Source: Dromaius novaehollandiae (Eukaryota; Chordata; Aves; Casuariiformes; Dromaiidae). Taken from it: 64,000 bases of DNA. Where the stretch lies: NCBI RefSeq assembly GCF_036370855.1, contig NC_088099.1, forward strand, positions 77,603,218 through 77,667,217, given 5' to 3'. This document shows, piece after piece, positions 47,601 to 63,846 of the stretch (position 1 is its first letter; each line of letters opens with the position of its first letter). Under the pieces are notes generated by a model. It searched no databases and was not told where the DNA came from. It saw nothing but the letters and a program-made list of their open reading frames with translations. The position numbers and the translations under genes are program-made.

Positions 47601-50600
47601 TCCCCATGAGATTCATTATTTCGAGTAATCCATTTCTCCATTCTTTTACCTATCTCTAAACAAAACAGTGTCAACCTACTCGATCTTCTTCATGCGAAAA
47701 ACTCCTGCTCCCTCTTCTCTGAGCCCCATCTTCTCCTGCTCTTTTGTTCTCTCAACTTAGCTGAACTGAAGTGAATTAACTGAACACGCCTTCTATAGCA
47801 CTAGCTGCTTTGCATCACCTTTGCAGCCATCAGCTGGTCCTACAACACCGGTCTTGTAGAGCTGCAAGATGGCACGTGTGGAAAGGGTAACAGTGAAATA
47901 TTCCACAAAAACAGGAAACCTCTCTACTCAGGACCTACACAGCAGAAATGCTGTGGGTAGCCCTTAATCCACCACTTAGAAGCCACAAAATTATGCCAGG
48001 CACACTCTGGACTAGTAAAAATATCACACTTTTTTGTGGCTGAGTATCTATTCCAATGATTCAGAAAAGAACACAGTATTGATTTCTAGAAGTACCATTA
48101 TTGTCTAGTCAGTGGTCTCTATCCTATGGCTTATGGATTAATCTTCACAGGCAATTTTGTACTTTCCATACACACTAAGTTTTTCTGTTTAGTTTTCAAC
48201 AGATGATTAATATATAATGCAGTCAACAAAAAGGACCTCATGCAGAATCCTACACAAAAGTTTCCCATGATGTCTCTCTCAATCCATTTTTGAACCATGA
48301 CATAGGCCTCAACTTTTCACCCTGTGTGTGCAGGAAAAAGGAGATAATGATCCCCCCTTTCAATTTTTCCCCAAAATAAATACTCAAAAGTGTACCTGTA
48401 TAATGGCTAGAACCATGTTTCTGAAGTGGTAGTTTCAACATACATTTCAAAGGACCCACTGTTTTGGAAAGAGGTAAGTGCAGAAAGTTGATGCCAACAA
48501 CTTTGGTGATGCAGCTCATCTTACACAGAATGCCTCATGTTATTTCCACATTCATTCCTGCCCTGAACACAGGGATGTAGGGAACGGCGATCGGAAGATC
48601 TCGCGATGGCACGGAAAGAGGAAGGAAGAGGAAGGATATGACGTAGAGATAGCAGTATGCTTATATACCTACAAGCATACTGCTATCTCTACGTCATATC
48701 CTTCCTCTTCCTTCCTCTTTCCGTGCCATCGCGAGATCTTCCGATCGCCGTTCCCTACACAGGGAAGAACATTACTTATCTGAGCAGAAAAATCCAGCTG
48801 TCAGAATACATGGCCTGGACACAATGCAAAGTGGACAGGAAGTGCATGAAAAGGTAACTGTTCAAACACAGAGTACAGCTCTAATACTGAAATACCTTCA
48901 GTCTCACTTGACTGTGCAGAATTGCTCTACTCTATTCTCTGATGGCAGAAATGGAGTGTGGAAGGAGACTGCAGCAAATACAATTTTTAATATCCCCAGC
49001 AGAATTTTCTCTGTGAGAAAATTCAATATGGGTTTAGGAAAGTGCAAAATAATCATCATATCAACAAGTCCTCTATTATCTCCCAGATAACTGAGGATGC
49101 CTCTATTTTGACAGACTTCTCAAAGTGTATTAAGAGATCGGAAACAAACAAAATTCTTCAGAAAAAGTCATCTCAGCTTCTAATGACCACATTCTCATCT
49201 ATACCGGGTCTTTCTAAAAGACTTTTACTGTAATTAATATTTATTAAAATTATATATTATCTTTCCTCATCTGAACTATAACTCCTTGCAAATTAGGACA
49301 GCAGAATCTTTCACTCTCTAAGAATAATGTTCCTTCAATGGAGAAGTGAAGGACATTTAACTGATTTGAGAGAGGTTAAATGATGAGTTATGCCTCTATT
49401 GCATTTTAGACTTTGCACTTTGATTCAAAAATCACAAACACTCCAGGATGGTCTTGTACTGGGTGGCCTCTGGAATGTCACAAGGAGTGAGCATTCCATG
49501 TTTCTTACTCCATGTATTTGACTGCACCTTCTTGCTCCCCATTTGAGATAGTAATGCCTTCAAAGACTGGCCCTTAATGCTATTACTAAATATGTCATTT
49601 GGGAGCACGGATTTGACAGTCCAATTCATTCATCACTTAAAATCACAAAAACAGACTTCCTTCAGTGCTAAACTCCACTGTACTCTTAAAAAAAACTGGC
49701 TGATTTCTGGGAAACATACAGAAGAAATGGAAGCACATTTATATCTTGGAGGGAAGGAAAGAGAAAATGATGCTATATTCAGAAATTATATCCTGGTTGG
49801 GGTTTCTTCATCATCCTTTTACAATTTTGATCCAAGAATTCAGTGAAGAGGCAACATCTCCATCCCATACAATGGGCATTTATGGGAGATATCATAGTTG
49901 TCGGTAAACAACTTAATTATCCCAAGATCCTTTTTCAAGTCAGCAGAGAAAGTACTGCTTAAAGGCATGAAAGGAATTGAGGGCTATAATTAGACATGAC
50001 TTTGAATGGGAGTAGTTTCCTGGAACTTTCTTGCATTTATCAGGCTGCTCAGAATAGTTCTTCTTTCAGCTCAGGAGTGCTCTCTGCACAGATGATTCTC
50101 TGATGTCCTTCATCATTCATTTTTGAATTATCTTTTCTTATACACTTGCTTATCACTGGAATGAGCTTCAGTGCAATAGTAAGAGGCTTGAGTTAATTGG
50201 ACCTGTTGGACAATATCCCCACTCATTCAGCTGTCGAGGTTTCCTCTCCACCAAACTGGCAGTTTAATAACTTCATATTATCTGTGCCACATGGCATAAT
50301 ACACAGTTCTACCTCACACCCAATTTGAGGCATATTGTCTTAGAATAAAAAACTGCTGGTGTAATAACATTTCAGTGACATTAGGCATGTCACTATTTGA
50401 TTGCAAATCCTATTCTTGTTATAATAGACAGTGTTTATTACTTCCTCACTTAAGGCCTTTTATCAGCTGTAGGCAATTGGCTACCTGATTAAAAAGGAGA
50501 ACCTGGTGAACTGGAAAAAGCACTGCTCTGAGAGAAAGCGGAGCCTTTTGTGATATAAGCATAGAAAAAAACCCAAGACTAATTAGCACAGTCTTGAGCA

Positions 50601-62380: not shown

Positions 62381-62904
62381 GTAGCCCTCTGTGGAAAGGT
62401 CTGAGAAGCTCCTCAAGCTTCAAGTGGGAGAGCAAGTCATGCTACCGGGGCAGTGGCAGCAGCATGCCAGCATGCAGCTTTTGGGATGTAGCATGGGGTC
62501 TGCAGCTGCTGCGTTGCCCTGGCATACCTTTGAGGGCAGGAGGCCAGACTCAGCAATGCCACTGCTGTGCTCTTCCCCAGAGCTCTTTTCAAAGGTACTG
62601 TATTTAACTGTCCCTCTGTGACACTCCTCGATCATCTTCTCTCCTGCAGCTTTCTTATCTGATCTGTACACCAGGCTCTTCTCTCCACAAGCCTCCCACA
62701 GGAAATCCATTTCCTATTAATGACCCTTTCAACTCCTCAATTATGAGCCCCAGCACCATCACCATCACATCGTCATTCAACCTACAGCTTTCGTTCAATC
62801 TGTCTGCTCCTTAAGAGTGTCCTCTACAGGACTGGGCTAGCCAATCTCCTTTGCAAAAAACTGACATTAAAACCTAATTCCACAGAACAACTCACGAAGA
62901 AAAG
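62381..62904. other. Intergenic stretch, upstream flank of the CpG island
   Basis: No gene recognised. Frames on both strands near 62400-62710 are unsupported. Confidence 0.4.
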
Positions 62905-63440
62905 GGACTGCGAGGAACGACGTCAGGGGCCCGCACTCGGAGGCTTCGCCGCCGCCGCCCGGGACCGCCCTCCCCGCCGCTCCCTCAGGGGCTCTGCGAC
63001 TCCCGCCCCCGGGGGCACCGCCCGCGGGCGGCAGCCGCCCCGCCCCCCCGCGCGCGCCTGGCCCTGACATGGCGTTAACGGCGCCTCCACCCCGCCGGGC
63101 TCTGCTTTCCGCGGCGGACTCGCTGCTGCTACTACTGTTGGGGGCGGCGGGTGAGTGAGCCCAGCGCTGAGGGAGGCCAGCGTTGCCTGCGGCCTTCACC
63201 TCCGCGCCTCCGGCGGCTCTCCCGCTTCCTCCATGCCGCGGCGCCGGCCCGCGGGGCCTCTTCTGAGCTCTCCCCGCAGCGGGTTCGGGGAGCCGCCAGC
63301 GCGGGAGGCTGCTTCCGCCGGCGCCGGGTTTTGCTCCCCTCCTCGAGCGGACTGCGCCCATGCGTCCCCGGGCAGGGCCGTCAGGGCTGTGCTTGGCCGA
63401 GCGCTCAGTGTGGCTCGGCAGGGTTAATTTGGGGGGGGCA
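62905..63440. promoter_or_regulatory. CpG island promoter
   Basis: An abrupt rise in GC and CpG content with SP1-type boxes (GCCCCGCCCCCCCGCG near 63036-63052), a CRE-like GACGTCAG at 62919-62926, and no TATA box. It surrounds the + strand first exon at 63069. The 202-codon frame on the - strand through it is a composition artefact. Bidirectional transcription is possible but unproven. Confidence 0.8.
63069..63150 (+). CDS. First coding exon of a secreted or membrane protein (partial)
   Basis: ATG at 63069 opens 27 codons plus one base, then a strong donor GTGAGTGAG at 63151 (phase 1). The peptide starts MALTAPPPRRALL and carries a six-leucine core (SLLLLLLGAAG), a classic signal peptide or signal anchor: basic N-region, hydrophobic core, small residues at the end. 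The rest of the gene lies beyond the window. In mammals RECK, whose product has a signal peptide, neighbours GLIPR2, but it lies upstream in the same orientation, whereas this exon diverges from GLIPR2. I therefore leave it unnamed. Confidence 0.62.
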
Positions 63441-63846
63441 GGGGGGAGAAGGCTGACAAGCAGTGAACAAATCACAAAATCACATGTGTGTGCCAGGTCT
63501 GTTGTGGGGTTTTATGCTTTTCATGCTTATTTCTCGAGCTCAGGCATCTTGCCCTCGACTGTTAATCTTTTTTCAAAGCTCTGTTGCCACAGCTCTATTT
63601 CTTAGCGCTTCTGCTGGCATATCTCTTGGCCGTGCTATTTTATTCCTCTTCCGCTTCTGCATAAGGCTGTTAGCAAACCTTTTTTTTCTGTTCTTTTTTG
63701 TATAAATTGGTTTGAACTACCTTTCTGCCAGGCCTCTTATTTGCTCATGTTCAGAGAAACGTTTCAGATGCTCCCGTTGTCAGTCTTGCTGGCACTCAGT
63801 TTTACAGGCAACTCGTAGTCCTAGTGTTGTGGGGATTTCGCTATTG

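Follow-up and report, generated by a model that had tools for sequence, protein, structure and literature searches.

A palindrome of 184 bp, perfect in both arms and bordered by a short direct repeat, lies in a stretch of 64,000 nucleotides of the Dromaius novaehollandiae genome (hereafter the window), and raises the question of what kind of element put it there. From the letters of the window alone (the sequence-only reading), it had been described as a perfect 87-bp inverted repeat with a 10-nt loop and CpG-rich arms, and taken for a very young foldback element or MITE of the hAT or Mutator type. The description holds. Each of the 87 positions of the left arm (48576-48662) finds its partner in the right arm (48673-48759) around the 10-nt loop, and symmetric pairing across all 184 bp (48576-48759) extends to 89 of 92 positions. 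The palindrome is far beyond chance: the RNA folding z-score of 48560-48775 is -26.8 (none of 200 shuffles folded equally well), and the runner-up among the inverted repeats of the window with a perfect 16-base seed has a perfect arm of 20 bases. Its first 90 bases hold 7 CpG, with an observed/expected ratio of 1.74 vs 0.18 for the window. Neither tRNA or tmRNA genes nor Rfam families at gathering score were found in the window.

The palindrome had also been placed in intron 1 of GLIPR2. A tblastn search with a human protein sequence gave four exon-like matches on the minus strand (44585-44472, 41326-41192, 33818-33729 and 32681-32508; 64-84% identity to that query), and a fifth match with E 0.91 was dropped. 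About 4 kb separates the insert from the exon carrying residues 4-41, which lies downstream of it in GLIPR2, and a location in intron 1 is plausible, not proven. An open GC-rich frame on the minus strand (62870-63511) may mark a promoter island.

Source of the palindrome arm

The first 90 bases of the arm were searched in the assembly of the window itself (1.47 Gb, 271 contigs) and gave at least 42 matches that are 99-100% identical to it (667 initial candidates and 40 scored; not all of the 42 listed matches carry a score). Many of the listed matches pair on the same strand about 6.1 kb apart, and at the loci that were read (some of the total) the arm begins an LTR of 230 bp, TGTAGGG...GGCGACA. 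A 25-base probe for the U3 end, with up to 2 mismatches, matched at 350 + 319 = 669 places, against 0 for its reversed-pattern control, and a 19-base probe for the U5 end at 319 + 304 = 623 places, against 5 + 2. The palindrome arm is U3 sequence, from the 5' end of an alpharetrovirus-like LTR.

One provirus with both LTRs is known from its two ends. The upstream locus (L012) comprises the 5' LTR followed by AG and TGGTGACCCCGACGTGA, the primer-binding site (PBS), presumably of the tRNA-Trp type; the downstream locus (L011) comprises the 3' LTR, 6186 bases away and preceded by the polypurine tract GGGGAGGGGGAGA. Aligned over 231 columns, the LTR pair shows one gap as its only difference, and the outer flanks both carry the 6-bp duplication ATCCAC. 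A further locus (L005) is a solo LTR. In this provirus a Retro_M domain (E 5.6e-12) lies in the frame after the 5' LTR, and an integrase core, rve (E 4.9e-19), in the frame that precedes the 3' LTR. With E up to 0.001, the integrase piece (L011:3-782) has matches in 126 distinct PDB sequences, of which 7jn3 ranks first (E 1.6e-92), an entry named integrase that we take to be the RSV enzyme. RSV or avian sarcoma virus integrase chains score close behind, and 1c0m, entered as RSV integrase, matches with E 1.1e-81. These matches identify the source element as a young alpharetrovirus-like endogenous retrovirus.

Several other properties of the family were observed. In L011:1-1500 the integrase frame ends at 785 and the 3' LTR starts at 1501; the intervening distance of only about 0.7 kb is too short to accommodate a complete env gene at that place in this copy. 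In the gag-region frame L012:1793-3079, a stretch of lysines (KKKKKKKKKK) and short motifs that recur make up parts of unusually low complexity. Three U3 ends (C1:166339957, 166346127 and 166352297) follow each other on one strand in equal steps of 6170 bases and form a tandem LTR-body-LTR-body-LTR array, likely produced by recombination between proviruses. On C2, U3 ends (74781562, 74784926) and U5 ends (74781773, 74785137, 74788501) recur every 3364 bases and form another tandem array, whose body is much shorter. In several LTR pairs the spacing is about 5.06-5.09 kb vs the usual ~6.15 kb (e.g., C1:61706346/61711407, 80129855/80134949 and 167541402/167546462; C2:95202936/95207991), which suggests a recurrent shorter provirus variant, perhaps mobilised in trans.

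Structure of the insert and related inserts

Compared with these LTRs, the insert and its borders resolve into the following features of the window:

48570..48575, plus strand: left 6-bp target-site duplication CAGGGA, exact repeat abutting the palindrome
48576..48662, plus strand: left arm, U3 bases 1-87, reading TGTAGGG...; identical to the LTR starts of L011 and L012 over 87 bases and of L005 over 90
48658..48662, minus strand: AAGCA, 5 nt common to both arms at the joint; LTR bases 98-102, where the stem of the native hairpin has its tip
48658..48759, minus strand: right arm and loop, U3 bases 1-102, ending at the TATA-box hairpin; 102-base prefix identical to L011 and L012
48659..48667, minus strand: TATA-box-like TATATAAGC (our label), a sequence seen in the LTR promoter
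48663..48672, no strand assigned: palindrome loop, 10 nt; its minus strand, GTAGGTATAT, equals LTR bases 88-97
48760..48765, plus strand: right 6-bp target-site duplication CAGGGA, exact repeat abutting the palindrome

Read on the minus strand, the insert consists of LTR bases 1-102 followed by inverted LTR bases 87-1, with 5 nt in common (the maximal matches on the two sides overlap by 102 + 87 - 184 = 5). Against the solo LTR L005, the right arm with the loop shows a single mismatch in the first 101 bases, at base 88. The insert ends in TG...CA, the LTR termini, and both of its borders are U3; the U3-R-U5 order with a 3' U5 border, as in an ordinary solo LTR, is absent.

The flanking sequence ACACAGGGA had been interpreted as a duplication of 9 bp. 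A direct repeat is indeed present at both ends, but its length is 6 bp: the extra ACA on the right side belongs to the arm as its final 3 bases, and two related inserts have GTG and AAG instead of ACA directly ahead of the 6-bp repeat. Duplications of hAT elements are 8 bp and those of Mutator elements 9 bp. Elsewhere in the family 6-bp duplications were found at inserts on C1 (GGCATG) and C2 (GATGGT), at L005 (GGGTTG) and at the provirus described above (ATCCAC). PMC11054761 gives a range of 4 to 6 bp for retroviral duplications, varying by virus.

The joint of the palindrome, searched with up to 2 mismatches in 1.47 Gb, is present exactly at two places, the window and C1:17859613-17859796 (a third match with 2 mismatches, L015 on C35, has no surrounding palindrome and was regarded as chance). 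In the genome search that the sequence-only reading had proposed, the arm is multicopy (the 669 U3 ends), but the whole palindrome was found at 2 loci and forms no MITE family. The two palindromes are identical at 184 of 184 bases; their flanks are unrelated (best matches of 12-17 bases, E 0.35), and the duplications differ (CAGGGA vs GGCATG). The insert at C2:106439395-106439737 is the third of its kind, 343 bp long and flanked by GATGGT. It contains a whole LTR (1 mismatch to L012), AG with 11 nt of the PBS, and an inverted U3 from base 101 to 1, the overlap at the joint being 1 nt. Truncated U3 ends at base 101-102 therefore occur in two different products (184 bp and 343 bp).

Head-to-head U3 ends 125-485 bp apart were found at 3 loci in total (the two palindromes and the C2 insert), 2 of them at 125-185 bp, in gap-pattern searches that used exact 12-mer ends and so missed mutated older palindromes. 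Head-to-head U5 ends, searched at 125-245 bp, gave 0 matches, whereas U3-U3 gave 2 loci in that range; this lends weak support to a preference for U3 over U5, a contrast of 2 loci with 0 being too small for proof. Among 100 listed of the 669 U3 ends, 3 convergent pairs lie within 50 kb, and all three are the inserts described here. The U3-U3 insert is most likely a rare, mis-made viral product present at three places in the genome.

The 184-bp copies are identical to each other, their arms are identical to the L011 and L012 LTRs, and their CpG sites are intact. The insertions are therefore young, in agreement with the earlier proposal of a very young insertion with a target duplication, although arm identity alone could also persist through gene conversion within a palindrome.

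Origin of a DNA with two U3 ends

The insert in the window is very probably a U3-U3 mini-integrant of 184 bp, derived from a young alpharetrovirus-like endogenous retrovirus and inserted by its integrase through two U3 ends. Both outer ends carry what their match to the LTRs shows to be the U3 terminus, with TG...CA and a 6-bp duplication, and the same structure recurs at a second site. Integrase would have taken up a plus-strand viral DNA, aborted and bounded by U3 on either side, processed both of its ends and joined them concertedly to the target with a stagger of 6 bp. Attaching a pair of viral ends to target DNA across a short, constant stagger is the ordinary activity of retroviral integrases. 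According to PMC3579926 and PMC7955051, RSV integrase performs concerted integration in vitro with donors bearing U3 ends only, placing two U3 ends into one target as proposed here; those experiments used a gain-of-function U3 end, several-fold more active than wild type. The insertion step is well supported, whereas the making of the two-ended DNA is an inference.

The joint falls on a native hairpin of the LTR DNA at bases 83-102 (83-90 TGCTTGTA, loop GGTA, 95-102 TATAAGCA), situated over the putative TATA box. Less certainly than the integrase step, plus-strand DNA begun at the U3 edge may have stopped near LTR base 102, folded back via the TGCTTGTA-GGTA-TATAAGCA hairpin, and been copied as far as its own 5' terminus. 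Since a simple hairpin is open on one side only, a DNA with two ends requires a further step: either two self-complementary 184-nt strands would have annealed, or the hairpin would have been opened and copied, yielding a linear duplex with U3 at both ends. The hairpin alone is weak (-3.3 kcal/mol); the U3 hairpin 10-38 (-4.4) and the U5 hairpin 166-186 (-8.8) are more stable, and neither is the turning point of any insert found. Under strict 3'-end pairing, bases 75 and 117 tie with 102 (5 pairs each), and for LTR bases 1-120 the folding advantage over shuffled sequences is moderate (z -2.3, equalled by 5 of 200 shuffles). The TATA-box hairpin has natural variants: base 88 is A in L005 vs G in L011 and L012, which would turn a G-T pair of the hairpin into A-T.

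With an overlap of only 1 nt at its joint, the 343-bp insert cannot have originated from the 83-102 hairpin alone. Joining of, or template switching between, two plus-strand products (the LTR with a partial PBS, and U3 1-101) would fit it better, and its 11 nt of PBS together with the inverted U3 from base 101 point to reverse-transcription intermediates. Within the reading of an integrase insertion through two U3 ends, we give fold-back self-priming a little over half of the weight as the origin of the 184-bp pair. Most of the rest goes to an explanation that shares the integrase step and to that extent overlaps with the preferred one, namely that integrase joined two separate truncated viral DNAs by their U3 ends and host end joining sealed the inner ends via microhomology. 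It accounts for all three joints, which share 5 nt (the 184-bp pair) and 1 nt (the 343-bp insert), and for the union of two unlike fragments in the latter; RSV integrase is moreover able to pair separate viral DNA ends in trans (PMC7955051). The exact same joint at two sites (184/184), however, would rarely be repeated by random joining unless a hairpin or strong stop fixes the ends. As an account of the insert, end joining is possible without being probable.

A solo LTR rearranged after insertion by local inverted duplication is very unlikely. Solo LTRs of the family exist (L005), but in 3 of 3 inserts the inverted copy stops exactly beside the duplication and replaces the U5 end, and a later rearrangement need not stop at that base. 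An assembly or library artefact (a fold-back chimera) is more improbable still: artificial palindromes are described in PMC6218980 from whole-genome amplification before long-read sequencing, yet an artefact of that kind would explain neither the 6-bp duplications, which differ among the three inserts and sit at exact U3 ends, nor the presence of one and the same insert at two loci. A sequencing-adapter origin was dropped, the arm being a native LTR with hundreds of copies; short stretches of it resemble what we take to be pieces of Illumina adapters. Relatives of the arm in plasmids and phages were confined to weak matches (2 plasmid records with E 0.7 and 1 phage record with E 0.2), and a 17-mer of the arm occurred in 4 IMG/VR contigs (L001-L004), where a few chance matches were judged likely at the size of that collection. 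A hAT or Mutator MITE, suggested by the perfect inverted repeat, the flanking direct repeat and the youth of the insert, is the most remote of these explanations, since the duplication is 6 bp in 3 of 3 inserts rather than 8 or 9 (the 9-bp reading for Mutator counts in 3 arm bases and does not hold at the other two inserts), a polypurine tract precedes the arm in L010 and L011, the remainder of an LTR and a PBS come after it in L012, and the whole-element joint is found at only 2 places. What had been taken for recent DNA-transposon activity is, from the LTR origin of the arm, evidence of recent retroviral activity instead.

Relation to known systems and significance

The virus group and its integration marks are already known: LTR insertions of the avian leukosis/Rous sarcoma virus group share with the present family the TG...CA ends, the 6-bp duplication, an RSV/ASV-like integrase and the Retro_M gag domain, and presumably the tRNA-Trp-type PBS. 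In an ordinary provirus or solo LTR one end is U3 and the other U5, whereas the insert in the window has two U3 ends and no U5. Foldback elements and MITEs likewise combine a short palindrome with a target duplication, but the ends of the insert are LTR ends, its origin is an LTR, and only 2 palindromes were found. Among unintegrated avian sarcoma virus DNAs, aberrant products of reverse transcription, defective or rearranged, were described in the 1980s; the present inserts are integrated and bear duplications. To our knowledge, the integrase reaction with two U3 ends is known only from test-tube work. In the RSV system in vitro the donor is supplied and its U3 end improved, whereas here the donor would be the mis-made DNA of the virus itself and the product lies in a genome. 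A full-text literature search found no description of two-U3 germline integrants, a weak negative with subscription journals mostly outside its coverage.

Having no PBS, packaging region or polypurine tract, the insert should be a dead end. We consider it rather doubtful that plus-strand synthesis in this virus family gives rise, again and again, to a discrete self-primed U3 hairpin positioned by the TATA-box hairpin, whose product integrase treats as a ready mini-transposon with two strong ends; if true, this would be a non-coding, integrase-carried counterpart of a MITE, which any U3-favouring retrovirus could seed in the germ line. If the preferred reading, an integrase insertion through two U3 ends, is right, the inserts would be germline examples, made in nature, of integrase acting on a pair of U3 ends, and dead-end intermediates of reverse transcription would be preserved in readable form, exact break points included. 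A retrovirus can then leave perfect palindromes that resemble foldback DNA transposons, and such inserts may be misannotated in vertebrate genomes.
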